DNA of 22,973 nucleotides from a virus: IMG/VR virus record IMGVR_UViG_3300008963_000036, positions 1-22,973 of that record; one strand, given 5' to 3'. A program made the translations under genes and the position numbers. The notes under the pieces are model-generated. The model made no database searches. It saw nothing but the letters and a program-made list of their open reading frames with translations, and was not told the origin of the DNA. Below, piece after piece: positions 1-16,396 of the stretch. Each line of letters opens with the position of its first letter. The first letter of the stretch is position 1.

Positions 1-1191
1 ATCTAATTCTATACCTATGAAGTTAAAATCTTCTAATTTTGCTGCTTTACCTGTCGAACCAGAACCCATAAATGGATCAAGAACAGTTCCATTTTTAGGT
101 GTCACCATACGAACTAAATATCGCATAAGATCAGTAGGTTTTACCGTTGGATGATTATTTTTGGAAGGGATGAAAGGTCTATTTGCTCTTTCAGGAACCG
201 CAGCACCTTCATTTTTCCATTCTTTATCAGGAAGATTATCAAGACCCTCATTTCGATCTTTCTTGGAAGTCTTAGCACAATAGAAGAAACGGGCGGCGGA
301 ACCATCATCACCAAGACCACCTGCATTTGCCACCAAAACATCACCAGAAAAGTCGCCATATTTATGACCAAAATTATTTTTAGTCTTACCACCACTAGAT
401 TTTGATTGTGGAAATAACTTCGTCACTTCTTCACTACCGTCATGAATCAGATTAGCGGGGAAACGACCAACAGGTTGTTCTTGATTACCTGCTCCCAACC
501 CTTTCCCATATACTTCATTATCATCACGCTTTATAAAAGGACGTGTCACATTTTCTTCACTTGTAATCCTACTTTCATCAATATTGATTCCACCTGTTCC
601 ATACTTCAAGACATTGGCGGCAACAGTCTTTTCAGACAATGGTTTTCTTGCAACCGTTATAGGTTCTAATGCTGGTTTGAGTGCAGTTCCCCAACCATCC
701 CATTGTTTTGCTTCGTCTGTGGCGGGAGCAGTGACTTCTGACTTTGCAGACCCGTTCGCCAAACCCTTACCATAAATCTCATTGTTTCCTGTCTCTCCAT
801 CTCTATATCCCGGTAATCCAATCTTTGTTCCGATTACCTTACGTTCAGCACCAGCAGATTTATCAATCGCCTTACTGATATTCTGCGATTTCGGAAACCC
901 ACTTCCATACACCCATGCAATCATATCACGAATTTCAAAACCACCATCTTCAATAGCAACTGCCATACGATGTTGTGTCCGAGTGCCAGCAAACGCCAAC
1001 AAGTGACCACCCGGTTTCAAAACCCGTAAACATTCTTCCCAAACGTCTTGACTAGGAACAGATTTATCCCATGCTTTCCCCATAAATGAAAGACCATATG
1101 GAGGATCAGTGACAATACTATCCACACTATTGTCAGGTAGTTCTTTCAGACGATCTAAGCAATCGCCCAACATAAAATTCACTTCACTCAT
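1..1191 (-). CDS. DNA methyltransferase, beta class (N6-adenine type), 3' end cut by window edge
   Basis: Reading leftward from ATG at 1191, 397 codons are open with no stop before the edge, so the C-terminus is missing. Motif IV DPPY is at residues 29-32 (VTDPPYGLSFMGKAW), followed by KPGGHLLAFAG and, about 340 residues later, the SAM-binding motif I DPFMGSGSTG (372-381) and FIGIEL. The order IV then I defines the beta class (N6_N4_Mtase family); DPPY favours adenine-N6 methylation. The long interval between the motifs probably holds the target-recognition region. The start lies 2 nt beyond the primase stop, so the two genes are co-transcribed. In a phage this enzyme would mark its own DNA against host restriction; no restriction partner is visible. 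The class is firm, the target sequence unknown. Confidence 0.9.
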   Translation of the reverse strand, partial: MSEVNFMLGDCLDRLKELPDNSVDSIVTDPPYGLSFMGKAWDKSVPSQDVWEECLRVLKPGGHLLAFAGTRTQHRMAVAIEDGGFEIRDMIAWVYGSGFPKSQNISKAIDKSAGAERKVIGTKIGLPGYRDGETGNNEIYGKGLANGSAKSEVTAPATDEAKQWDGWGTALKPALEPITVARKPLSEKTVAANVLKYGTGGINIDESRITSEENVTRPFIKRDDNEVYGKGLGAGNQEQPVGRFPANLIHDGSEEVTKLFPQSKSSGGKTKNNFGHKYGDFSGDVLVANAGGLGDDGSAARFFYCAKTSKKDRNEGLDNLPDKEWKNEGAAVPERANRPFIPSKNNHPTVKPTDLMRYLVRMVTPKNGTVLDPFMGSGSTGKAAKLEDFNFIGIELD

Positions 1192-1193
1192 TT

Positions 1194-2210
1194 TCACCTC
1201 TTTTTCCATTTAGTAAATTTCAGACTTGCATCAAGACCTTTGAAAGAATTGTCGTATATAATCTTTTCAATGTCTTTAACACCAGAAAGCACCATATCAT
1301 TAATATCTTTTTGTTCTATATATGAGGGCCATATACATACTTTATAACCTTGCTTAATCGCTTTTTGCATTCTCTTATGTATTTCGACATTTCTTGGTTC
1401 GTTATCGAAAACTAAAATACCATTATCAGCATTACGCAATCCATTCATGTTACCATCCGCACCCGCCATTGCGACACAGTTATTTAGAAATAAACTATCA
1501 ATACCACCTTCAACAACGAGATAAGGTTTTTCGAAATCTACTTTATCCAACCCAAATATTTTTGGTTTGTCTTCATGAAACATGATGGTGATATATCTAA
1601 TTCCATTAGGATCAAACCCCCTTGCAGAAACACCAAAAATCTTTCCATTCTCATCAAGAAATGGTAAAATCAATCTAGGTTCGTCTTTTTTGAAACCTTC
1701 AAACTTATTAGGCAAAATAGTGTTGATCCAAGTTTTGAACTTAGGAGCATAGAACAACCTATAATGTTGATCGGGAGGTATTCTGCGATTTTGTATATAT
1801 TTCTTAACGGGATGATCATGCTTTAATTGACTAATTTTTTTGATCTTTTTTAGAGGATGACTTTCAAAAACAGGTTTGATTGTTTTGTATTCTGCATCCA
1901 CAGGCATTTCTTCTTTTTTCTTACCCTTACTCAAAAACTTTTCAGCAAGGTAATCTTTGTATACTTCGGGATCAATGATTTTAAGAAATCCCATCAAAGG
2001 GTGACTTTCTCCACAGTTATGGCAATAATATACAAATGATTGATTCTTGCTTTCAAGCAACCAACCTCTTGCTTTCGTTTTTGATGTTTGTGAATCGCCA
2101 CATAAAGGACACCTGAAATTTATCCTATATGGGTTTTTGTGTGTGATTTTAAACCTTTCGAGGCGGTTTGAAACCAACATAATATGTTGCAAGTCTACAT
2201 AATCTACCAT
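1194..2210 (-). CDS. 61: DNA primase, T4 gp61-like
   Basis: The 338-residue protein matches T4 gp61 in size. An N-terminal zinc ribbon has Cys34-x2-Cys37 (CPLCGD) and Cys63-x2-Cys66 (CHNCGE). A C-terminal TOPRIM-type catalytic domain shows VEGGIDSLF at 233-241 and FDNEPRN at 268-274, the latter typical of gp61. It makes RNA primers for lagging-strand synthesis together with the gp41 helicase, which is encoded at 18862-20301. The ATG at 2210 has an AGAGAG-like ribosome site. Just upstream is an exact sigma-70 consensus promoter (2244-2272), and the DNA methyltransferase follows 2 nt after the stop, giving a two-gene unit. In T4 the primase gene lies close to 41; here lysis and virion genes separate them. 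Confidence 0.95.
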   Translation of the reverse strand: MVDYVDLQHIMLVSNRLERFKITHKNPYRINFRCPLCGDSQTSKTKARGWLLESKNQSFVYYCHNCGESHPLMGFLKIIDPEVYKDYLAEKFLSKGKKKEEMPVDAEYKTIKPVFESHPLKKIKKISQLKHDHPVKKYIQNRRIPPDQHYRLFYAPKFKTWINTILPNKFEGFKKDEPRLILPFLDENGKIFGVSARGFDPNGIRYITIMFHEDKPKIFGLDKVDFEKPYLVVEGGIDSLFLNNCVAMAGADGNMNGLRNADNGILVFDNEPRNVEIHKRMQKAIKQGYKVCIWPSYIEQKDINDMVLSGVKDIEKIIYDNSFKGLDASLKFTKWKKR

Positions 2211-2243
2211 TTTTCTCTCTTATTTTATAGATATACAAAAGAG

Positions 2244-2272
2244 ATTATAGCACTATGAGTCTAGGTTGTCAA
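2244..2272 (-). promoter_or_regulatory. Sigma-70 consensus promoter for primase/methyltransferase
   Basis: On the minus strand TTGACA (2272-2267) and TATAAT (2249-2244) are separated by exactly 17 nt, a perfect match to the bacterial housekeeping consensus. It overlaps the stop codon of the 2269-2736 gene and lies about 35 nt before the primase ATG. I infer early transcription by unmodified host RNA polymerase. Confidence 0.85.
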
Positions 2273-2736
2273 CTAGGAAATAAAACGTTCCAAGGAAAAA
2301 CAGACAGCACAAAAATTAAAATTGCGGCGATGCCCATAGCATACCACTTCCAGTTTTCCAATTTTGTTATTCTTTGATCTTGCTTGTCAAGTTTGTCATT
2401 AAATGAAGTGCTCATATCATCAATTTTAGTCATAAGTTCTTTGTGTCTTTCTTCTCTATGCTTTTCAGACACTTCTTTAAGATCATCAAGTCTCTTATTC
2501 AAGTCTTTATGAAACTCCATTTCATCTTTATTATGCTGAACAAATTTCTTTTCTAGTATTTCTACTCTTTTTTCGTTGTTTTTAAGCATTGCTTCTTGCA
2601 CTGCCAAATTTTTAAGTATATCTGACATTTGCCCAGCGACCTTATCGAATTTAACAAACACTTCTTCTATTTGCTTAATATCTTTTTTAACCAAAGCAAT
2701 ATCAGTAACAATGCTATTTATATCATCATCTGACAT
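2269..2736 (-). CDS. Coiled-coil protein with C-terminal membrane anchor (possible lysis accessory or holin)
   Basis: The 155 residues are mostly charged heptad-like helix (about 10-128), then one hydrophobic segment near 130-150 (WYAMGIAAILIFVLSVFPW) and a very short tail. There is no signal peptide. This layout, a soluble coiled coil followed by a C-terminal anchor, resembles haemolysin XhlA-type proteins. It follows the endolysin and spanin genes, and the endolysin needs a membrane exit route, so a holin or holin-partner role is possible. One transmembrane segment is not decisive, and a membrane tether for another phage process is equally allowed. The ATG has a strong AAAAGGAG site, and a late-promoter motif (2773-2780) lies directly upstream. 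Confidence 0.75.
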   Translation of the reverse strand: MSDDDINSIVTDIALVKKDIKQIEEVFVKFDKVAGQMSDILKNLAVQEAMLKNNEKRVEILEKKFVQHNKDEMEFHKDLNKRLDDLKEVSEKHREERHKELMTKIDDMSTSFNDKLDKQDQRITKLENWKWYAMGIAAILIFVLSVFPWNVLFPS

Positions 2737-2772
2737 TCGTTTCTCCTTTTAATTAAGCAATTTGTTTAATTG

Positions 2773-2780
2773 TATTTATT
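2773..2780 (-). promoter_or_regulatory. T4-type late promoter motif AATAAATA
   Basis: AATAAATA on the minus strand fits NATAAATA, the T4/cyanophage late -10 element. It overlaps the stop of the o-spanin gene and lies about 37 nt before the ATG at 2736. Confidence 0.5.
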
Positions 2781-3147
2781 ATTCGTAAGATTTTTCATAT
2801 ATAGCAACGACACTTTGATATTGCTGTATCGTTGATCTAACATCATTCAAGTTCAATGCAAGATTTTCATAATCATCGCCACTCAAACCAAAAATTACGG
2901 GGTTTTGGTTTGAATTCTCCATTTCTTCAAAAACTTCTTGATAGTTTTCTTCTGTAATTATAATCCATTCGACGTTTCTAAGTTCCAACTGATCCACAGT
3001 AGGAACAATAGGTGCAGGTTTTTCAACGGGAACCTCTCTAACTTCTACAATAGGTTCTTGTTCAGGAACGTCAACGGTAGAACAAGCACTAACGGCCAAC
3101 AAGACTGTCAAACAACCAAGGACATTCATTGTTAAATTTTTGCCCAT
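2779..3147 (-). CDS. o-spanin-like outer-membrane lipoprotein (Rz1 type)
   Basis: The product has a short basic N-terminus, a hydrophobic stretch and a lipobox LAVSAC (Cys22 from this start), then a Pro/Glu/Val-rich segment (VPEQEP, VPVEKPAPIVP) typical of Rz1 proteins, and a longer acidic C-terminal part. The frame opens at 3165 with three in-frame ATGs. I prefer the third (3147) because AAAGGA lies about 9 nt upstream and it gives a standard signal peptide; the ATG at 3165 has no visible ribosome site. The gene begins inside the i-spanin gene in another frame, the classic overlapping Rz/Rz1 arrangement. The pair should bridge the envelope and disrupt the outer membrane at lysis, which implies a Gram-negative host. 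Confidence 0.82.
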   Translation of the reverse strand: MGKNLTMNVLGCLTVLLAVSACSTVDVPEQEPIVEVREVPVEKPAPIVPTVDQLELRNVEWIIITEENYQEVFEEMENSNQNPVIFGLSGDDYENLALNLNDVRSTIQQYQSVVAIYEKSYE

Positions 3148-3574
3148 TTTCTGCATTCCTTTCATTATCTGTTAATGGCGCACCAGAAAGAAGTTCAAAA
3201 CATCTTAATGCTTCATCTGATGCATTGTTAATAATTCTTTCAACTAACTCTGGTCTTGCCTCTGCCAAAGCACTTATATCGTGATCACTTAGTCTGTCTC
3301 TCAGTCTAGAATTTTGTTGACGTATTTCGTCTAACTGTCTTTGCGCAACTTCATATTGCTCTCTAATCTGCCTAGCATTATCTTGTAAATATGTAATAGT
3401 TTCATTGGCGCTTTCAATAGCACCCTCTAATTCTATCTGATTGCTTTTCAAAGTTGCATTGTTTTCAGTTAGTTGCATAATAGTATTTTGGGTGGTGGTG
3501 TAATAATAATAAGCACCACCACCTATAACTGAAAATAATGATATTATTCCAATGATAAAGTAAACTTTAAGCAT
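3089..3574 (-). CDS. i-spanin-like inner-membrane protein (Rz type)
   Basis: The 161-residue protein has one N-terminal transmembrane segment (about residues 4-24, FIIGIISLFSVIGGGAYYYY) and a long periplasmic coiled coil (about 30-100, rich in Gln/Glu/Arg). Its C-terminal region has Cys125 and Cys151 (ALRCFELLSGAP and NNECPWLF), which could form a disulfide. This is the i-spanin layout, and the o-spanin gene starts inside its 3' end. The ATG at 3574 lacks a clear Shine-Dalgarno and lies 8 nt after the stop of the acidic protein, suggesting translational coupling. Topology and overlap support the call strongly; sequence identity to a named Rz was not tested. Confidence 0.82.
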   Translation of the reverse strand: MLKVYFIIGIISLFSVIGGGAYYYYTTTQNTIMQLTENNATLKSNQIELEGAIESANETITYLQDNARQIREQYEVAQRQLDEIRQQNSRLRDRLSDHDISALAEARPELVERIINNASDEALRCFELLSGAPLTDNERNAENGQKFNNECPWLFDSLVGR

Positions 3575-3582
3575 TATTCAAA

Positions 3583-3774
3583 TTAGTCATCGTCGTCTTC
3601 GTCGTCATCATCTTCCATTTCTTCATCATCGTCATCGTCTTCATCATTCATTTCTTCTTCATCGGATGCTTCTAGTGCAAGACGGATACGTTCTTTAAGT
3701 TCTTCTTCAAGTGCCTCTTTTACAGAAAGAGGGTTTTTGTTGATTGTTTCTTGAATGATTTTTTCTACTGACAT
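3583..3774 (-). CDS. Small highly acidic protein, gp67-like prohead core candidate
   Basis: These 63 residues consist of a helical N-terminal part (IIQETINKNPLSVKEALEEE and a following RIRLALEA segment) and a C-terminal tail made almost entirely of Asp and Glu. T4 gp67 (PIP), an internal prohead core component cut into internal peptides, has the same plan: a short helix with repeated basic/aliphatic residues, then an acidic tail. Synteny does not help, because in T4 gene 67 lies by the head genes 68-21-22-23, whereas here it sits between endolysin and spanins. A low-complexity acidic tail is easily matched by chance. The ATG has AAAGGAG and its own late-promoter motif (3811-3818). Confidence 0.7.
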   Translation of the reverse strand: MSVEKIIQETINKNPLSVKEALEEELKERIRLALEASDEEEMNDEDDDDDEEMEDDDDEDDDD

Positions 3775-3810
3775 TTTATGTCTCCTTTATGTTGATTATT
3801 GCTATACACT

Positions 3811-3818
3811 TATTTATT
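3811..3818 (-). promoter_or_regulatory. T4-type late promoter motif AATAAATA
   Basis: The minus strand reads CTAATAAATAAG about 37 nt before the ATG at 3774, overlapping the end of the endolysin gene. It would drive the acidic protein and spanins late in infection. Confidence 0.5.
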
Positions 3819-4677
3819 AGCGAAATAATTTTGCGTATGTATTCGGACCCGCAATACCATCTGGTTTCAGACCATTAGCACGTTGGAAGTTTTTCAATGC
3901 AGCGGCAGTTCCAATACCAAAAATACCATCATCTTTGATACCCAATGCTTTTTGCAATTTACCAACTGCTGGACCTCTTGAACCTCTTTTCAAAATAGGC
4001 ATAGATGAATTTCTAGGCGATGGTGTTCTAGTAGGTGTAGGAACCTCTCCGCTCAATATATCTAATGCTCTTGCATATCTTGCTTTACGGTCATCTAATC
4101 CAATTTTCCCGCCATTAACTCTTTTAGACATTCCAACAATATCATTTCTATCAGCATATCTTTCTAGATTGTTTTTCTCCCAAAACCAACATGCTGATTC
4201 AAAGGCACCTTGTTTTGTTGACAAGTATTCAGCGGCATCTTCTGCACTCATACCTACATCGTTTCCAAATGCAGTGTAGTTGCTACGACCTGTAAGTTGT
4301 TTGATACCACGTCCACGAAACCTCCAACCATCACCATCTTCCACATTACCTAATGCACCACGTCTTGAACGATTTTTGTCCATGTATACATAGTTAGCAA
4401 TCTTTTCAGGTTGTCTATGATACTCTTGCGCATGTGATTTTGATTTGAAATATCTTTTTCCAAAAACACGATATAGTGCATCTGCGGAATAATTCAAGTT
4501 TTCTTCCAATCTAGTAAAATCAGCGGATTCATGTGCACATTGTGCCATAAAACCTGCGATTCTGTTTGGAGTGTTTATTTCATATTTTGCAAACATCTTC
4601 AATGCGATTTCATACCATTCTTCTGGTTCACGGTTTGTTGGTATCATCGCTCTAAACTGGTCTAATGTTATTTGCAT
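3817..4677 (-). CDS. Endolysin: GH19-type muramidase/chitinase fold with C-terminal peptidoglycan-binding domain
   Basis: Residues 1-210 carry the glycoside hydrolase 19 signature: CAHES with presumed catalytic Glu50, the ENLNYSA segment, and FRGRGIKQLTGRSNY (120-134). A Pro/Thr/Ser-rich linker (about 211-226) leads to a PG_binding_1 domain (about 228-286; LKRGSRGPAVGKLQKAL, DGIFGIGT and KPDGIAGPNTYAKL repeats). It should cut the glycan backbone of host peptidoglycan. There is no signal peptide or SAR segment, so release needs a holin. The ATG has TAGGAGAT, which lies inside the 3' end of the upstream gene. The nearby spanins make this a lysis region. Confidence 0.93.
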   Translation of the reverse strand: MQITLDQFRAMIPTNREPEEWYEIALKMFAKYEINTPNRIAGFMAQCAHESADFTRLEENLNYSADALYRVFGKRYFKSKSHAQEYHRQPEKIANYVYMDKNRSRRGALGNVEDGDGWRFRGRGIKQLTGRSNYTAFGNDVGMSAEDAAEYLSTKQGAFESACWFWEKNNLERYADRNDIVGMSKRVNGGKIGLDDRKARYARALDILSGEVPTPTRTPSPRNSSMPILKRGSRGPAVGKLQKALGIKDDGIFGIGTAAALKNFQRANGLKPDGIAGPNTYAKLFR

Positions 4678-4678
4678 T

Positions 4679-5242
4679 TTAATCTCCTAAAATATCTCTT
4701 AGTTTTTTGCCTTTGTTTTTCTTATTTTTTCTTTTATAACGTCTCATTTGTGCAGGCGTCACACCCGGTTCGCCATCGGGACCAACTCCCAAACCAGCAA
4801 TTTTTCCCGATCCAACATTCATTGTTGGAGTCTCTAAAAAGTCGTTTTTTGTATTGACAAAATTGTTTTCAGTGATATAATCCATGTATGGCATAAGGGA
4901 TATTATTGATTCGTTAAGCTGTTCTGATTCAATTATTTCTTCTGTTAGCATTGATTCATCAGTAAAATATTTCCATTCTTTAATTAACCATAAAGCAGCA
5001 GCATAAGATGCAATTCTACTTTTGCCGCCGGGAACTTTTTCAAGTAATTTTTTCAATTTTAGAACAAGTAAATCAAATTTTCCAAATGCATTTCTCATTT
5101 GTTTTGATCTACTACGTTCTCTTTTATTGATTAAAATATTTCCACGTTCATCAATTATACCAAGATCATATGCCTCCCACTCATCAAAGGGTGTGGCAAG
5201 TCTTCTGATAAATTGATATACTAAAAATAGGTCAACGACCAT
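4679..5242 (-). CDS. Conserved protein of T4-like marine phages, probable virion-related
   Basis: The 187-residue protein has a conserved N-terminal part (residues 1-95: LVYQFIRRLATPFDEWEAY, LGIIDERGNIL, KVPGGKSRIASYAAALWLI). An acidic middle follows (LTEEIIESEQLNESI), then a Gly/Pro-rich stretch (MNVGSGKIAGLGVGPDGEPG) and a very basic tail (RRYKRKNKKNKGKK). I recall similar N-terminal blocks in many T4-like cyanophages, with no assigned function. The basic tail could contact DNA. LNE and FLE segments resemble the prohead-protease-like sites of its neighbours. The ATG has AAGGACG. The gene lies between the modular virion-type genes and the endolysin, whose ribosome site overlaps its stop. Confidence 0.8.
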   Translation of the reverse strand: MVVDLFLVYQFIRRLATPFDEWEAYDLGIIDERGNILINKRERSRSKQMRNAFGKFDLLVLKLKKLLEKVPGGKSRIASYAAALWLIKEWKYFTDESMLTEEIIESEQLNESIISLMPYMDYITENNFVNTKNDFLETPTMNVGSGKIAGLGVGPDGEPGVTPAQMRRYKRKNKKNKGKKLRDILGD

Positions 5243-10996: not shown

Positions 10997-12625
10997 TTAA
11001 ATAATTTTTACATTCTGGTGTTTTACAACGTAAAGTTTACCTTCATCATCTCTTATTCTCATACGACCTGTCGCTTCATCTGTTCCGACAAAGGTTCCTT
11101 CAACGTCTTTATACCCATCTGTTATCTTGTATTTTTTAAACCTTACTCTTGAACCTCTAGGCATCTCTTTTTCTAATGGCGAAGATTCATGTTGACCGGG
11201 GGTGTCTTTTTTATAAATTCTGGTAAGACTATCTGTTCCCCATTCTCTGTCATATGGATCGGAAGATTCGGCAACCCCGTATTTTCTTCTAAATTTATCC
11301 ATAATTTTCGGATCATGTTTTTTCTTTGCTTTTTGAGGTGGTCCATATTTTTTGATATATTCTTTTTCCAGTTGCTTACCAGTCAATTTTATACCAGAAA
11401 CTAATTTACTAATGTCATATGCGATATCACCCACATCAACGCCTTTTAGAACATGTCTGTGCATGGCAGAAAGTGCTTTGTCTACGATACTTTCTTCATC
11501 TAAGAAATCCATATCGTAGATTTCTTCCAATGTAAAAATGTCTTCTTTTACGCAAGAACCGGGTTCATAATCTTTTTTGCCACGAACTTTTTTATATCCA
11601 TCCCAACATGGATTGTCTTCTTCTAAAGATTCGTTTTTCTTCACTTTGTCGGCAAGGTCTTTATCTGCTTTCCCCCATGTTCCTTTTCCTTTAGTAGCAA
11701 ATGAGTTTACACGTGCAAGACCCCACTGAACTGGTGTTGTTCCGGGTCTGTGTCCTGTTCTCCACGCAGCAACACCACGATCAAAAACCTTTTTAAGAAT
11801 TGAATATGAAATGCCAGTTTCTTTTGATTTCTTTTTCAATGCTTTTTCTGCTTTTTCTTCCATCAACTCTATTTGTTCTATAAGATTTTCTATTTGAACA
11901 TCCTCACCGAACATCTTGTCATATTTTTTAGTATGTTTTGAAGGTTTTGTTTTTGCTTCTTTATCACCGGGTGCGGGTTTATAAGCATCAGGATTGTCAT
12001 CATCCATCTTTGCTTTTTTATTGAAGTGTGCATCTCTCTTGTCTTTTGTAGAAGGTGCAAGTCCTTTATAGTATTTGGCAGGTTGTGTGCCTTTTTTATC
12101 TTCTATGTCTTGATCTTGCTTGGTAGACTCATTAATTTCATAAACTAAAATATCGAATTCATAGTCTTCTTTTTTCCCACCTCTATTAGCAAGTCTTTCT
12201 CTTTCTGCTTTTTTGACTTGTGGAAGTTGTCTTCTTGTAAGTCTTTCGAGTGCTGCTTTAGGAATTCTTTGAATTCTTTTATCTAATGCAATTTTTTCAG
12301 CAGCAGACATTTCAGAATACTTCTTACTTTTCATAAGTCTCTGTTTAATTATGTTTCTTGATTTTCTCTGCGCTCTTGCCTTCAACTTTTCAGGCGTTGC
12401 TTTTCTTTTCGCCGCTCTTTTTCTCGCCATTGCAATCTTATTCTTATAACGACGCATAGTCATTGCTTTTCTTTTTCTTTGTGCCATAGATAATGGCGCT
12501 CTTTCTTCTAAGTAATTAAGAGCAATATCGGTAACACTTTCGTATGATGGTTCCAAATCAATATACTTTTTTGGATTGTGCTTTCCGCCACTATCCTTAT
12601 TTTTCTTATCTTTTTTATTAGGCAT
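10997..12625 (-). CDS. Large modular virion-type protein with very basic region and several conserved phage domains
   Basis: In this 542-residue protein, residues 45-150 are strongly basic and helical (APLSMAQRKRKAMTMRRY, KIAMARKRAAKRKATPEK), conserved in cyanophage structural proteins as far as I recall. Residues 175-241 read KGTQPAKYYKGLAPSTK, KRDAHFNKKAKMDDDNP and KTKPSKHTKKYDKMFG. Residues 255-330 (ISYSILKKVFDRGVAAW, TGHRPGTTPVQWGLARV) form a second known uncharacterised phage domain, DUF5824 from memory. About 338-360 is a Cys-containing motif (NPCWDGYKKVRG, CVKE), and 488-542 a small SH3-like barrel. [LIV]-x-E sites lie at 164-166 (INE/S) and 451-453 (VAE/S). It lacks the MKxF N-terminus. 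A perfect late promoter lies 33 nt upstream with GAGGATATT. Confidence 0.85.
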   Translation of the reverse strand: MPNKKDKKNKDSGGKHNPKKYIDLEPSYESVTDIALNYLEERAPLSMAQRKRKAMTMRRYKNKIAMARKRAAKRKATPEKLKARAQRKSRNIIKQRLMKSKKYSEMSAAEKIALDKRIQRIPKAALERLTRRQLPQVKKAERERLANRGGKKEDYEFDILVYEINESTKQDQDIEDKKGTQPAKYYKGLAPSTKDKRDAHFNKKAKMDDDNPDAYKPAPGDKEAKTKPSKHTKKYDKMFGEDVQIENLIEQIELMEEKAEKALKKKSKETGISYSILKKVFDRGVAAWRTGHRPGTTPVQWGLARVNSFATKGKGTWGKADKDLADKVKKNESLEEDNPCWDGYKKVRGKKDYEPGSCVKEDIFTLEEIYDMDFLDEESIVDKALSAMHRHVLKGVDVGDIAYDISKLVSGIKLTGKQLEKEYIKKYGPPQKAKKKHDPKIMDKFRRKYGVAESSDPYDREWGTDSLTRIYKKDTPGQHESSPLEKEMPRGSRVRFKKYKITDGYKDVEGTFVGTDEATGRMRIRDDEGKLYVVKHQNVKII

Positions 12626-12657: not shown

Positions 12658-12665
12658 TATTTATA
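12658..12665 (-). promoter_or_regulatory. T4-type late promoter TATAAATA
   Basis: An exact TATAAATA lies on the minus strand 33 nt before the ATG at 12625, in the short gap after the GT25-like gene. It likely starts the transcript for the 12625-9904 virion-type genes. Confidence 0.75.
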
Positions 12666-12677
12666 AAATCATTCAAT

Positions 12678-13349
12678 TCAAACATTATTAAAGTGTCTCC
12701 TGAAAGAAGGTATAAAATCGTAATTTTTTGTTGAACTTTCTTTCCATATAGTAGATTGCCTTAACCACCCAATAGCAGGTGTGGGGTCAGCAATTGCTAA
12801 TGGTATTTTTGTTTTTCTGGACCTCAAAAAGTATACATTGTCAATCGCACCCATAACACCATTTTTTTCAATCTCATCTATCAATTTTTTAGCAGTTACA
12901 TGATTTATGCAATATGCATGTGCTCCTTCATGACCGTCTATATCAATCAATCTTTTAGGTGGTCCTGCCATCACATAATCATACAACTGTGGTTCTTTTG
13001 TCTTATATCCCAGAACCACAATCTTATTATCTGGTATGTCAATATTTATTTTGTGCAACATTATAGCGTCATGTTCTAAAATTATCGCACACTCTTTTTC
13101 ATCGGCAATTTTTTTCCATATCGCTGCATGTCCAGAAGAAGCAAGTTGTGCTTTATTAGAAACGTTTTTTCGTTCTATCTTTCTTTTTAGTCCAAAACTG
13201 TTCCACGCAACGTTTCCGTCAATACTGTGATGCCAGTTGAAATATTCCCACTTTATGCCCAATCCATCACAAGAGTCAGAACAATTTTTCGCATATTCGT
13301 CTGATATTGGCGTTTTTGTTTTTAGTATATAAACTTTTGTTGGTTTCAT
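12678..13349 (-). CDS. GT25-like glycosyltransferase
   Basis: The 223-residue protein shows KVYILKTKTPISDEYAKNC at the N-terminus, SSGHAAIWKKIADEKECAII (71-90) leading into LEHDAIML (91-98), and EGAHAYCINHVTAKKLIDEI. The order matches family GT25 (LPS beta-galactosyltransferase type): SH-x2-x-W-K-I, then the EDD-type acidic motif, then the HAY block. The usual EDDA reads EHDA here, so the central Asp is His and metal-dependent activity needs checking. It is the last gene of the glycan cassette, overlapping the sulfotransferase gene by ATGA. It would move a sugar onto a surface glycan of host or virion; donor and acceptor are unknown. Confidence 0.75.
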   Translation of the reverse strand: MKPTKVYILKTKTPISDEYAKNCSDSCDGLGIKWEYFNWHHSIDGNVAWNSFGLKRKIERKNVSNKAQLASSGHAAIWKKIADEKECAIILEHDAIMLHKINIDIPDNKIVVLGYKTKEPQLYDYVMAGPPKRLIDIDGHEGAHAYCINHVTAKKLIDEIEKNGVMGAIDNVYFLRSRKTKIPLAIADPTPAIGWLRQSTIWKESSTKNYDFIPSFRRHFNNV

Positions 13350-14014
13350 ATTTCAATTCCAGTAATTTCAAAATACTTTTCGAAGTCTTTTTCGTAATAC
13401 TTCTTTACTGCGCTTGCAGTTTTTTCGTCATAATACTTATCAAAAAGACTTTCGTCTTTGGGTTTCATTTCACTTTTAAACTGTTGAAGATTGGTTCTGA
13501 CTTGTATAGAATTATCAGATATGAACTTATTTGTGTGTCTATCTATATTGTCGTAATCCCACCACTCACCACAATCTTTGCTATCAATTGACAGATAATC
13601 GGTCTGCAAAATTTTATTTGAACCATCCTTAAAATGATATCCGTTTTTGAAATGTTCTCTGAATTCTTCTGGATTACTTTTTTTTGTTCTCCTATCCAAG
13701 AAGAAATATAAACTCAACTGCCTTTCAAATGGATTCCTTATGACACCAATGTTTTTCTTCTTAATAGCATCGCTTTTTGATATGATACCATTATCAATTA
13801 TCTCTTGTAGTGTAAGGTGGATAAATCTATATTGAGTCTTGTATTTTAAAACAATGTTATGTGGAACATTGTTGTTTGGTATTCCAGCGTCATTAACTTC
13901 GGTGTATACGTCTCTGCCATTACAGCAATTCTTTATGAAAAAATGTGCAAGACTAGAACTTGCATTCTTAGGAATTCTCATAAACGTAAAATTGTATTGA
14001 TCACAAATAACCAT
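13346..14014 (-). CDS. Sulfotransferase, PAPS-dependent
   Basis: The 222-residue protein opens with the 5'-phosphosulfate-binding loop FMRIPKNASSSL (11-22), a fold-typical K-x-A-S-S/T motif. The 3'-phosphate-binding motif follows at GVIRNPFERQLSLYFF (90-105), where R93-N-P-F-x-R and S101 match carbohydrate sulfotransferase families. A Trp/Tyr-rich middle (CGEWWDYDNIDRHTNKFI) may bind the acceptor. The C-terminal EKTASAVKKYYEKDFEKY resembles the closing helix seen in Sulfotransfer_2 proteins. It should transfer sulfate from PAPS to a glycan hydroxyl. GTGAGGTCAAT precedes the ATG. It is embedded between glycosyltransferase genes, so the acceptor is probably the glycan they build. Confidence 0.85.
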   Translation of the reverse strand: MVICDQYNFTFMRIPKNASSSLAHFFIKNCCNGRDVYTEVNDAGIPNNNVPHNIVLKYKTQYRFIHLTLQEIIDNGIISKSDAIKKKNIGVIRNPFERQLSLYFFLDRRTKKSNPEEFREHFKNGYHFKDGSNKILQTDYLSIDSKDCGEWWDYDNIDRHTNKFISDNSIQVRTNLQQFKSEMKPKDESLFDKYYDEKTASAVKKYYEKDFEKYFEITGIEI

Positions 14015-14021
14015 ATTGACC

Positions 14022-14720
14022 TCACTTTAAAATAATATCTCGCTTTATGTCTTCAAACATCATAACTTTGTTTTTTCTGTGGTAATGAATGAAGTCCTGT
14101 TCAAATCGTTTCGAATGATCTTCCCTAGATAAATGGTAATTATATCTCGGCGGCAAGTCATAATACCTATCCACGTGCCTTACGTAATAATTGACAAATG
14201 CTTGGTCGAAGTTGCCTAATGAAGTATAAACAACATCATTTGTATCAAAAATACTTTCTATATTTTTAAGGTATTCCAACAAATCATCATATTCACTTTT
14301 TGGAATAACCACAACCCCACTGTTTATGTGACCTTTGTTTTTCCAATACTTGAAATTGTTATTTCTTAGTGTCAGTTTTCGCATCCTCTCATGAGTTTTC
14401 ATGAAGTTAGCAGACAAGCAATCATTAGGCGTATCTTCAAATATATCCTTGCTATGTATAGTTGCTAATATGTCACTGTCTACGAAACAAACTTTGTCAT
14501 AATCGTGCATCCATTTTTCAAAAAACGGTTGGAATATGCCGAAAAATGGAGGTAGGTTGTGCGGTAAATTTCCATTAAGAAGTTTGTAGTCTGCACCTAT
14601 TTTTTGTGCATACTTTTTAAAAGACCTTTCCGAAATAGTGTGATATTCTTCTTGGGTCTGGATATAATTTTTGGTAACAAATTCGGGTGTTTTGTAATAT
14701 TGGTATATGAGTTTTTTCAT
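14022..14720 (-). CDS. GT-A fold glycosyltransferase (GT8-like)
   Basis: The 232-residue protein carries KVCFVDSDILATI with a DxD motif at 81-83, GHINSGVVVIPKSEYDDLL (NSG at 133-135), and LGNFDQAFVNYYVRHV. These three blocks in this order are typical of GT-A nucleotide-sugar transferases such as GT8: metal/nucleotide-binding DxD, acceptor-side NSG, and D-Q. The N-terminal part (LIYQYYKTPEFVTKNYI) is less conserved. Donor and acceptor cannot be read from sequence. It overlaps the preceding gene by ATGA and lies 7 nt before the sulfotransferase gene, in one operon. Confidence 0.82.
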   Translation of the reverse strand: MKKLIYQYYKTPEFVTKNYIQTQEEYHTISERSFKKYAQKIGADYKLLNGNLPHNLPPFFGIFQPFFEKWMHDYDKVCFVDSDILATIHSKDIFEDTPNDCLSANFMKTHERMRKLTLRNNNFKYWKNKGHINSGVVVIPKSEYDDLLEYLKNIESIFDTNDVVYTSLGNFDQAFVNYYVRHVDRYYDLPPRYNYHLSREDHSKRFEQDFIHYHRKNKVMMFEDIKRDIILK

Positions 14721-15328
14721 TTCATCACCATAAAATCTTCAAAAGACATTTTATCCCAAGGCAAAACACTATCAGGATCATCAGACAAATTGACCAATTT
14801 GGTATTGCCTTTTCTTTCATTAAGTCTATCGAATAACGTTTTTAATATGTCAGGATTGTTTTTGTATTCTTCGACATTTCTGAATTGATATAAAGGATCG
14901 GGCATTCCTCTTTTTTGTATATCGTATCCAACTCCATAGAAGGCAGTAGAACCATCTTTTTGGGGTGTGTAATTCATGTCAAATCCGATGAAACCAATAT
15001 GAGTTGGTTTTAGATAAAATAGCGCCCAATAAGTTGAAGTGAAGTATATGGGCAGACCTAAGAATATTCTCGCATCTGACCATTCCATATTTGCCATTCT
15101 CACATATGACCTTTTATATCCCCTGATACCATCCTTAGAATGTATTTCTTGGTTTGGTCTTTTTTTCAAAATATCTTTTTTGAAAGGGTAGTCTCCTGCA
15201 TGTATCAAGTGATCCCATTTGTCTGTTCCTTTCCAGACATTGTTAACACCGACTATTGTAACTGATTTTGTATCCCAATTGTTAATATTCACCATATTAG
15301 GACCACTACCAACACAAATCACTTTCAT
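14717..15328 (-). CDS. Putative sugar-processing or glycosyltransferase-like protein with GxGPN loop
   Basis: The 203-residue protein begins MKVICVGSGPNMVNINNW, a G-x-G-P loop after the first strand, then VTIVGVNNVWKGTDKWDHLI. This recalls the CMP-sialic acid-binding start of GT42 and of DUF115/MptE-type proteins (GxGPSL...FxxN), and IYFTSTYWALFYLKPTHIGF with GFDMNYTPQ follows. The similarity is limited to the N-terminal loop and general layout, so the specific activity is open. Its place, overlapping both the methyltransferase and glycosyltransferase genes by ATGA, makes a role in the same glycan pathway likely. Confidence 0.6.
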   Translation of the reverse strand: MKVICVGSGPNMVNINNWDTKSVTIVGVNNVWKGTDKWDHLIHAGDYPFKKDILKKRPNQEIHSKDGIRGYKRSYVRMANMEWSDARIFLGLPIYFTSTYWALFYLKPTHIGFIGFDMNYTPQKDGSTAFYGVGYDIQKRGMPDPLYQFRNVEEYKNNPDILKTLFDRLNERKGNTKLVNLSDDPDSVLPWDKMSFEDFMVMK

Positions 15329-15864
15329 CTTATTATCTCACAACATTTTATCGGGACATTTACTCCTGTAGATGCAGGGTAAGAAGTTTCTGCAACCACT
15401 TTCAGTTTTGTCTTATTTTCTTGAAATGTTTTCTTCACATTTCTGTTTTGTAAATCATCAATTATTGCATATTTCACATCAGAAAGAAATGCTAAGTTCA
15501 AGTCATTTTGAATGTAGGGTAAGTCATGCGAACCGTCAATGAATATAACATCATATCCATCAACTTCATTTGGTTTCAAATACATAGAGTTTTTTTCGTA
15601 AAAAGAAAACCTGTCTTTGAACTTGTTTTTAACCACTTTGGCATTTCTTTTTGTTATATCAAACATGCATATATCAAAAGAGTGAACAATAACATCATCG
15701 AATAAAGATAGTATTATGGAACTACTGTGTCCTGCATTAAAACCTATTTCAAATATGCTTTTGAAGTCAGTTTTCTGTTTCACATTTTTCCAAAAAGATA
15801 TTACTTCTTCGTTAGCAACCATATGACCTGTTCCGCCATCAGGCAACCAATTAATGTCAATCAT
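15325..15864 (-). CDS. SAM-dependent methyltransferase (Methyltransf_24-like)
   Basis: The 179-residue class I methyltransferase has motif I IFEIGFNAGHSSS (37-49), a second-strand acidic HSFDI, and DVIFIDGSHDLPYIQNDL (105-122) with AIIDDLQN afterwards. FIDGxH...D-L...IIDD is the Methyltransf_24 signature found beside glycosyltransferases. The longest frame would use TTG at 15870; I choose ATG 15864 because AAGGAG then has a normal 8-nt gap, while it would touch the TTG. It is the first gene of the glycan cassette, 22 nt after an exact late promoter and downstream of a strong terminator. It may O-methylate a sugar; the substrate is unknown. Confidence 0.82.
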   Translation of the reverse strand: MIDINWLPDGGTGHMVANEEVISFWKNVKQKTDFKSIFEIGFNAGHSSSIILSLFDDVIVHSFDICMFDITKRNAKVVKNKFKDRFSFYEKNSMYLKPNEVDGYDVIFIDGSHDLPYIQNDLNLAFLSDVKYAIIDDLQNRNVKKTFQENKTKLKVVAETSYPASTGVNVPIKCCEIIR

Positions 15865-15885
15865 ATTCAAAACTCCTTTTTCTTA

Positions 15886-15893
15886 TATTTATA
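15886..15893 (-). promoter_or_regulatory. T4-type late promoter TATAAATA for the glycan cassette
   Basis: An exact TATAAATA lies on the minus strand in the 48-nt gap between the terminator hairpin and the ATG at 15864. With no other promoter seen, it should drive all five cassette genes late in infection. Confidence 0.75.
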
Positions 15894-15898
15894 CGCAT

Positions 15899-15928
15899 AA
15901 AAAAAGAGGGCGTTACTTGCCCTCTTTT
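15899..15928 (-). terminator. Strong rho-independent terminator
   Basis: On the minus strand AAAAGAGGGC (15928-15919), a 7-nt loop AAGTAAC and GCCCTCTTTT (15911-15902) form a 10-bp perfect stem ending in a run of T. The loop contains the stop codon of the 21-residue ORF. It closes the DUF1127 unit and isolates the glycan cassette. Confidence 0.88.
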
Positions 15929-15978
15929 CCTTCTTTATCTAATGGGTCTTTTTCCCCATAGTATGGTATATGTGACAT
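15913..15978 (-). CDS. Possible 21-residue peptide gene
   Basis: An ATG at 15978 overlaps the stop of the preceding gene by one base (TAATG). It opens 21 codons (start MSHIPYYGEKDPLDK, then Gly/Lys/Glu-rich) before a TAA in the loop of the terminator hairpin. There is no separate strong ribosome site, so translation would rely on coupling. The tight junction and the way it fills the space to the terminator favour a real gene; its small size leaves chance possible. Function is unknown. It is hydrophilic, with no membrane span. Confidence 0.45.
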   Translation of the reverse strand: MSHIPYYGEKDPLDKEGKEGK

Positions 15979-16151
15979 TAGATGTTTCCTTTTCTCATAT
16001 CTTTATAAATTTTTCTTGCTTCTTTATAGTGACCTAATCTTTCCAATTCTCTTGCCGCTCTTGCCATTCCTGACAATTCTACCGCTCTCATTATAGATTT
16101 ACAAAAATTAAAGAATGGGTTTACGAAATAATTTTTTGCTAACTGTGCCAT
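15978..16151 (-). CDS. Small DUF1127-related helical protein
   Basis: I use ATG 16151 rather than the in-frame TTG at 16160. It gives a TGATG overlap with the preceding DUF1127 gene and AAAGG at a normal distance. The 57-residue product has a hydrophobic/aromatic N-terminus (FVNPFFNFCKSIMRAV) and a basic helical end (RAARELERLGHYKEARKIY). The RAARELxRLG block resembles the helical half of DUF1127/YjiS proteins, but the D-[ML]-G-I-x-R-x-D-I signature is missing. Pairs of such proteins occur in alphaproteobacteria as far as I recall. A regulatory or RNA-related role would follow only if the DUF1127 relation holds. Confidence 0.7.
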   Translation of the reverse strand: MAQLAKNYFVNPFFNFCKSIMRAVELSGMARAARELERLGHYKEARKIYKDMRKGNI

Positions 16152-16396
16152 CAAACCCAACCTTTGATATTTTCGTTCACTTCGATATGTTTTTCATAAA
16201 CTTCTTTAGATATACGTGGTATATCGCAACGAGTAATTCCCATATCCGCAAGTTCTCTGCTACCCAAAGATTGTAATTCATTTCTAGTTTGTATCATAAG
16301 TCTACGTGCAATAATTCTACTTTGTAGTTTTTTGAAAAATTTTGCTATGAAGTTAAGATTAAGTCTTTCAGCAAAATCAATAACAGCATCAGTCAT
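16151..16396 (-). CDS. DUF1127 (YjiS-like) small protein
   Basis: The 81-residue protein has a basic N-terminal half (IAKFFKKLQSRIIARRLMIQ) and the core TRNELQSLGSRELADMGITR followed by CDIPRIS. This is the DUF1127 signature: R-x-E-L-x-x-L-x-x-R-E-L-x-D-[IM]-G-[IL]-x-R-x-D-I. The family is common in alpha- and gammaproteobacteria; one Rhodobacter member (CcaF1) is described as an RNA-binding modulator of RNA processing and decay. Finding it in a phage suggests capture from an alphaproteobacterial host and possible control of host or phage RNA. It has its own late-type motif (16433-16440), a good AAAGGACAGGAA site, and two coupled small genes behind it. Confidence 0.88.
   Translation of the reverse strand: MTDAVIDFAERLNLNFIAKFFKKLQSRIIARRLMIQTRNELQSLGSRELADMGITRCDIPRISKEVYEKHIEVNENIKGWV

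Follow-up and report, generated by a model that had tools for sequence, protein, structure and literature searches.

The 22,973-nucleotide window analysed here, which derives from an uncultured T4-like phage, carries five intact ORFs at 12678–15893 on the minus strand. Very probably, their products assemble a short glycan and add methyl and sulfate groups to it in the late phase of infection. A virion protein is given an even chance of being the acceptor of this sulfated, methylated glycan. The genes, their families, the promoters, the recurrence of the five enzymes as a set and the linkage of the sulfotransferase with the GT25 glycosyltransferase are established.

The first gene of the cassette encodes a methyltransferase (P0005, 15325..15864), and is followed, also on the minus strand, by genes for the GxGPN protein (P0004, 14717..15328), a GT8-like GT-A glycosyltransferase (P0003, 14022..14720), a Sulfotransfer_2 sulfotransferase (P0002, 13346..14014) and the GT25 glycosyltransferase (P0001, 12678..13349). 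Three of the four junctions are 4-bp ATGA overlaps, and at the fourth the genes are separated by 7 nt. In the minus-strand direction, the cassette lies behind an intrinsic terminator (15902..15928, a stem followed by a T7 tract) that closes the preceding DUF1127 unit; its MFE is -17.7 kcal/mol (z -4.34), and equal stability was reached in no shuffle. A late-promoter-like TATAAATA is found at 15886..15893 (minus strand), 21 nt ahead of the first ATG. Another, at 12658..12665 (minus strand), lies 32 nt ahead of the ATG of the next late unit, which encodes a DUF5824 protein (10997..12625, minus strand; PF19141, E 1.8e-18), the fixed downstream neighbour of the island. The initial annotation had described a single five-gene unit between a strong terminator and the next late promoter, joined mostly by ATGA overlaps and placed behind one exact TATAAATA. 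The elements listed above bear out this description, most of which is further backed by comparison with relatives, the promoter by its strand bias there.

In the whole window, TATAAATA occurs seven times against 2.0 expected, and three intergenic copies on the minus strand compare with 0.26 expected. In related loci, it is 29 times commoner in the sense orientation (205 sense, 7 antisense), and of 82 loci, 63 have it ahead of the gene that follows GT25 and none has it ahead of GT25 itself. An equivalent element precedes the methyltransferase gene in lineages L050, L051/L053 and L056. Thus, the element is strand-biased and lies just upstream of late units, as expected of a T4-type late promoter, and its sense bias and position before the gene that follows GT25 support expression of the cassette late in infection. 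Rfam and tRNA scans of the window gave no match, and an NCBIfam search returned nothing useful. No transmembrane segment was found in the cassette, the maximum 19-residue hydropathy being 1.66.

As judged by its profile match and motifs, P0002 is a predicted PAPS sulfotransferase of the Sulfotransfer_2 family (PF03567, E 2e-6, 28.6 bits against the Pfam cut-off of 22). This was the sole family found at E<=0.1, and the Stf0 profile gave no match. Both PAPS-binding motifs are present, the 5'-PSB (PKxxxS) as PKNASSS and the 3'-PSB (RxPxxRxxS) as RNPFERQLS, and residues R93, P95, R98 and S101 are invariant in an alignment of 11 relatives. P0001 matches PF01755 (GT25) with E 8.8e-6 (26.2 bits, cut-off 24), and PDB 8xc8, also a GT25 enzyme, is a further match (E 1.1e-4). 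Its conserved motifs are EHDA and DPTPAIGWxRxSTIW, and EHD, the acidic nucleotide-sugar motif, is invariant in the alignment. P0005 matches PF13578 (Methyltransf_24; E 1.8e-6, 29.2 bits, cut-off 26.3), and the SAM motif EIGFNAGHSS and FIDGxH are conserved in an alignment of 7 relatives. Hence, the methyltransferase, sulfotransferase and GT25 types read initially from the sequence all lie above the Pfam cut-offs.

P0003 itself has no Pfam match; two of the seven members of its family match GT8 (PF01501, best E 2.7e-6). A DxD motif (DSD/DAD, with D81 and D83 invariant), GHxNSGV and DQ are conserved. The AlphaFold model (pLDDT 83) adopts a GT-A fold, in agreement with the type originally assigned, and Foldseek returned 264 PDB matches at E<=0.001, GT-A/GT8 enzymes among them. 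The top structural match is the capsid glycosyltransferase of PBCV-1 (2p6w, 2p72, 2p73; E 1.3e-8), which is alike in fold but is only 16% identical and comes from an algal virus, and a shared fold does not imply a shared acceptor. No Pfam family was found for the GxGPN protein or for any of 19 relatives, and it is therefore filed only as a sialyltransferase-fold protein. Its AlphaFold model (pLDDT 90) has the fold of the sialyltransferases CstI (Z 11.5 over 177 residues) and CstII (Z 11.2) and of the Maf glycosyltransferase (Z 10.6), with unrelated Rossmann proteins at Z 8.6 or below. However, identity to these enzymes is only 12–14% with no profile match, and the sialyltransferase catalytic base was not located. 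P0004 is thus a putative sugar transferase with a GT42/GT29/Maf-type fold. Single-sequence searches of solved structures with P0003 and P0004 gave chance matches only.

A nucleotide search with the cassette as the query found no similar DNA among phage records. In tblastn searches of 50,697 phage records, P0001–P0004 had no match and P0005 had one weak match (Phage C48C1, 32%). When P0002 or the A1-like protein served as a single-sequence query against viral contigs, no match emerged; relatives of both were detectable only with alignments as the query. GT25 relatives in viral contigs numbered 206. The one from lineage L111 scores 23.7 bits against PF01755, just below the cut-off, and tblastn with the L111 sulfotransferase and GT25 gave no match. 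The only GxGPN match in bacterial genomes lies on a MAG contig that also bears a phage DUF5824 homologue, and this contig is therefore probably a phage contig within the bin.

All five enzymes occur together, arranged in three gene orders, in five other uncultured phage lineages (L050, L051/L053, L052, L055 and L056). Comparison of the cassette content across related phages thus agrees with the variable island initially suspected: in many uncultured relatives, the same enzymes recur in permuted order at the same spot, with the replication-side A1-like gene to one side and the DUF5824 unit to the other. A GT25-anchored survey drew on the best 80 of the 206 GT25 relatives. Here, 40 of 51 lineages have a sulfotransferase gene immediately upstream of GT25, and 45 of 50 have a DUF5824 family member at position +1/+2 relative to GT25. 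On the basis of the former count, the predicted sulfotransferase–GT25 pair is taken as the core, and the other enzymes as exchangeable. Domains are also shuffled: one ORF in L081 matches both the GT8-like and GxGPN profiles, and in L065–L068 GxGPN domains are fused to an N-terminal sulfotransferase-like QRSGT domain that has no Pfam match, which is likely a sulfotransferase–GxGPN fusion.

In 17 of 35 lineages, the genes upstream of the island include virion structural ones, from clusters that match phrog_1645 or phrog_8198. L050, the nearest relative, has both a tail-fibre-like gene and a virion structural gene a short distance upstream. Of the six glycan-bearing loci among A1-anchored relatives, only three also have a structural gene, and a link between the two (3/6 versus 0/4 lineages) is suggestive only.

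From these data, we infer the enzyme activities, the order of steps, the sugar identity, the acceptor and the benefit as follows. The five genes would form one late transcription unit, and a short glycan would be built in the host cytoplasm by two or three nucleotide-sugar-dependent transferases, namely GT25, the GT8-like protein and the sialyltransferase-fold protein. The methyltransferase would O-methylate the glycan, and the sulfotransferase would move sulfate onto it from PAPS. A PAPS-forming APS kinase (PF01583) was not found in 20 related records, and hence the PAPS would have to be made by the host. The unit would fire with the structural genes and sits among them, and a virion surface protein is therefore the most likely acceptor. 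The result would be a negatively charged, lineage-variable coat that may alter adsorption, stability or recognition.

Late modification of the host LPS O-chain or capsule with a sulfated or methylated side group, blocking adsorption of competing or progeny phage to the dying cell or debris, ranks below a virion protein and is a serious contender, though held at somewhat less than even confidence. GT8, GT25 and CstI/II-like folds are those of bacterial LPS enzymes, and Pfam names PF01755 'LPS biosynthesis protein'. The related pelagimyophage glycosyltransferases were interpreted as modifying the host O-chain (PMC7029224). The nearest cultured UvsX relatives include the Sinorhizobium phages phiM12/phiM7/phiN3, and S. 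meliloti LpsS is a dedicated LPS sulfotransferase (PMC12445080), which likewise sulfates a surface glycan but belongs to the Stf0 family, whereas the phage enzyme matches Sulfotransfer_2 only. The partner enzyme of the common island, moreover, is GT32/Caps_synth-like. However, the promoter is late, not early or middle, the cassette has no lipid-carrier, flippase or polymerase gene, and virion genes are neighbours in relatives. GT8, GT25 and sialyltransferase-fold enzymes, phage-encoded ones included, are standard LPS and capsule enzymes, which counts against a virion acceptor.

Sulfation of a protein or peptide (tyrosine-sulfation-like) or of a small molecule, with the other genes as unrelated passengers, is very unlikely; sequence does not reveal sulfotransferase specificity, and P0002 was compared by motif and profile only, but the tight linkage to GT25 noted above (among the best 80 relatives) argues against it, as does the best solved-structure match of the sulfotransferase profile, a sugar-modifying heparan sulfate 2-O-sulfotransferase (E 2.8e-4). 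Hypermodification of DNA with a glycan, as in the glucosylated bases of T4 or with the diverse glycans of other phages, is the least probable reading of all, since, although DNA is a common target of phage glycosyltransferases and about a dozen related islands hold a serine hydroxymethyltransferase, the promoter is late, an N4/N6 methylase (1–1209) is the sole DNA-modifying gene noted in the window, and the sulfotransferase and GT25 families are, to our knowledge, not known to act on DNA. The initial proposal, in which late timing makes DNA modification less likely than decoration of virions or the cell surface, is therefore reasonable, given the late promoters, the virion genes alongside in relatives and the lack in the window of any visible gene for base hypermodification. 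A glycan on the particle is a prediction, and the GT25, GT8 and sialyltransferase folds are just as typical of LPS and capsule enzymes.

Both glycan islands and sulfotransferases are already known from phages. Pelagimyophages and cyanomyophages carry host recognition clusters or glycosyltransferase islands, including a large island, with tail fibres, that separates VrlC from neck gp14 (PMC7029224). These resemble the cassette in that their glycosyltransferase genes vary between T4-like phages whose gene order is otherwise conserved, but the cassette sits in the interval from the A1-like gene to the DUF5824 unit and includes a conserved sulfotransferase–GT25 pair; the pelagimyophage paper (PMC7029224) makes no mention of a sulfotransferase. 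In mycobacteriophages Che8, Corndog and Myrna, the phages' own glycosyltransferases decorate the capsid and tail tube (Freeman et al. 2023, as cited in PMC12363180 and PMC12619734). The acceptor is proven in those different phages, whereas here it is predicted, and sulfation is not reported in the citing accounts consulted.

In a literature search, the conserved, shuffled sulfotransferase–GT25 pair appears undescribed. We know of no phage particle shown to be sulfated so far, and sulfated virions here, if true, would be the first. It is tentatively suggested, at less than even confidence, that uncultured T4-like phages of a widespread group bear sulfated virion glycans made by a modular, shuffled sulfotransferase–GT25 pathway, as a charge-based, rapidly exchangeable coat. 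The sulfotransferase–GT25 pairing, the GT8–GxGPN and likely sulfotransferase–GxGPN fusions and the late promoter give a concrete, testable frame for a late-sulfated glycan. If present on virions, this glycan would represent a new phage surface chemistry; if present on host cells, it would represent a new way of remodelling their surface late in infection.

The cassette described in the initial annotation at 12678-15893 on the minus strand was borne out. Its five ORFs are all intact and are ordered methyltransferase, GxGPN protein, GT8-like protein, sulfotransferase and GT25, with ATGA overlaps at three of the four junctions and a 7-nt gap at the GT8/sulfotransferase junction. A terminator (-17.7 kcal/mol, z -4.3) separates the cassette from two small minus-strand genes (15978-16396) that lie between it and the upstream A1-like gene. 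One of these (16151-16396, minus strand) is a DUF1127 gene (PF06568, E 1.3e-9), a type of gene also seen immediately before the glycan island in several relatives.

The TATAAATA of the cassette (15886-15893, minus strand) is 21 nt upstream of the first ATG, and a second (12658-12665, minus strand) is 32 nt upstream of the DUF5824 gene. Intergenic copies on the coding strand of the window number 3, against 0.26 expected. Over 981 kb of GT25-bearing loci, 205 copies were sense and 7 antisense. The 100 nt preceding the gene that follows GT25 contain TATAAATA in 63 of 82 loci; it is absent from the corresponding stretch before GT25 itself in all 82, and present in that before the gene preceding GT25 in one of 76. 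The methyltransferase gene is likewise preceded by TATAAATA in relatives L050, L051/L053 and L056. As judged from sequence, TATAAATA is strongly predicted to be a T4-type late promoter.

In HMM typing, three proteins matched Methyltransf_24, Sulfotransfer_2 and Glyco_transf_25 above curated cut-offs; the GT8-like protein, searched alone, had no profile match and the GxGPN protein has no Pfam family. The sulfotransferase retains both PAPS loops (PKNASSS and RNPFERQLS), and a PDB search with its profile found heparan sulfate 2-O-sulfotransferase (E 2.8e-4). In an alignment of relatives the GT25 retains EHD, and its profile matched solved GT25 enzymes. Two of seven relatives of the GT8-like protein matched the GT8 profile, and its AlphaFold model is GT-A (pLDDT 83); the top Foldseek match (E 1.3e-8), the major-capsid glycosyltransferase of the virus PBCV-1, is taken as a lead only and not as evidence for a shared acceptor. 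The GxGPN model (pLDDT 90) resembles the sialyltransferases CstI and CstII (Z 11.5 and 11.2) and a Maf glycosyltransferase (Z 10.6), with unrelated Rossmann rows at Z 8.6 and below; given this fold match, transfer of a CMP-activated sugar is possible.

The window, a 22,973-base IMG/VR virus record, is from a T4-like phage and encodes gp32 (PF08804), UvsX, a gp41-type helicase, a GH19-type endolysin and further late genes; almost every gene is on the minus strand. Its gp41 and UvsX are only about 50-56% identical to those of the nearest cultured relatives, cyanophages and Sinorhizobium phages phiM12, phiM7 and phiN3, and the A1-like protein is closest to that of Ochrobactrum phage OC (41%). In loci L004, L005, L019-L022, L026, L027, L030 and L031 gp41 is in two ORFs, uvsX is likewise split in several of these, and the halves are about 1 kb apart in some, which suggests inserted introns, inteins or homing genes.

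GxGPN-anchored scans of viral contigs brought in loci with all five enzymes (L050, L051/L053, L052, L055 and L056) and one, L054, with four. L050, with proteins 59-71% identical to those of the window, shares its gene order. L051 and L056 have MT-GT8-GxG-ST-GT25, L052 has the same with an extra sulfotransferase-like gene separating GxG and ST, and L055 has ST-GT25-GT8-MT-GxG. The retention of the same set despite rearrangement argues for the five enzymes belonging to one predicted pathway. Among only six taxa, pairwise identities of the sulfotransferase, methyltransferase and GT25 covary (r 0.82-0.90), and GxG and GT8 depart from this pattern, L052 and L055 being 78-82% identical there and only 46-51% elsewhere; blocks of genes would thus have been exchanged by recombination. 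One ORF (L081 6713-8005) matched both the GT8-like and GxGPN profiles and is probably a fusion. Single proteins in L065-L067 (5245-6579) and L068 (5125-6618) join a GxGPN domain to an N-terminal domain that is sulfotransferase-like as judged from a QRSGT motif and has no Pfam match. The viral contig L063, from another type of phage, has four or more sulfotransferase-like genes interspersed with two GxGPN genes (2-5141). The sole bacterial-genome match, MAG contig L170, carries four of the five genes adjoining a DUF5824 homologue and is probably a phage contig placed in a bacterial bin.

A GT25-anchored scan found 206 relatives. Of the 80 loci closest to the GT25 of the window, five-enzyme loci included, 59 have a sulfotransferase of the cassette's family as the gene immediately preceding GT25; after clustering at 90% identity this corresponds to 40 of 51 lineages, a fraction that may drop among distant relatives since only the closest were counted. 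A GT32-like enzyme (Gly_transf_sug) takes the place of the sulfotransferase in eight lineages of these 80 loci. On this gene-order evidence, the sulfotransferase-GT25 pair shows as the putative core of the island. The common island runs virion structural protein, DUF1127, Methyltransf_24, (kinase, SHMT), GT32, ST, GT25, TATAAATA and a DUF5824-type gene, and the window has GxG and GT8 instead of GT32. A serine hydroxymethyltransferase and a small P-loop kinase (named by eye from sequence) directly precede GT32-ST-GT25 within the island in L099, L100, L108, L109, L114, L133, L135 and others. The island proves optional among relatives retrieved with the A1-like gene: six carry glycan genes downstream of that gene, and none of the glycan genes sought occurs in several others with sufficient sequence. 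Comparison with relatives supports a variable island, with enzyme sets shuffled and exchanged. L019, L023 and L028 carry alternative islands at the same site with GT29 sialyltransferase-like genes, accompanied in L019 by a polysaccharide pyruvyl transferase-like gene and in L023 by DegT-like aminotransferase and GDP-mannose-dehydratase-like genes.

Glycosyltransferase islands are known in T4-like marine phages (PMC7029224), virion glycosylation is known in mycobacteriophages (PMC12619734, PMC12363180), and phage sulfotransferases are on record with function unclear there (PMC10580990). No description of the conserved sulfotransferase-GT25 pair was found, which is weak evidence since only open-licence papers were covered. 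Searches of 50,697 phage records by tblastn gave no match to the GT25, sulfotransferase, GT8-like and GxGPN proteins (P0001-P0004), nor to the sulfotransferase and GT25 of relative L111.

In the proposed pathway, two or three transferases would use nucleotide sugars of the host to assemble a short glycan, which the methyltransferase would cap and the sulfotransferase would sulfate with PAPS supplied by the host; a search of 20 related records, many of which are fragments, found no APS kinase. None of the five proteins has a membrane segment, and the cassette includes no lipid-carrier enzyme, flippase or polymerase. Host LPS or capsule as the acceptor is a serious rival, of somewhat less than even likelihood: the enzymes belong to LPS and capsule families, such pelagimyophage genes have been so interpreted (PMC7029224), and LPS sulfation by LpsS is known in bacteria (PMC12445080). 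Virion structural genes are upstream of the island in 17 of 35 lineages, and the nearest relative, L050, has tail-fibre-like genes and head-type structural genes a short distance upstream. Given these genes, the late promoter and the fixed place before a late gene, we favour a virion protein as the acceptor, a reading with about an even chance of being correct, in which the phage would decorate its own particle with a sulfated, methylated glycan.
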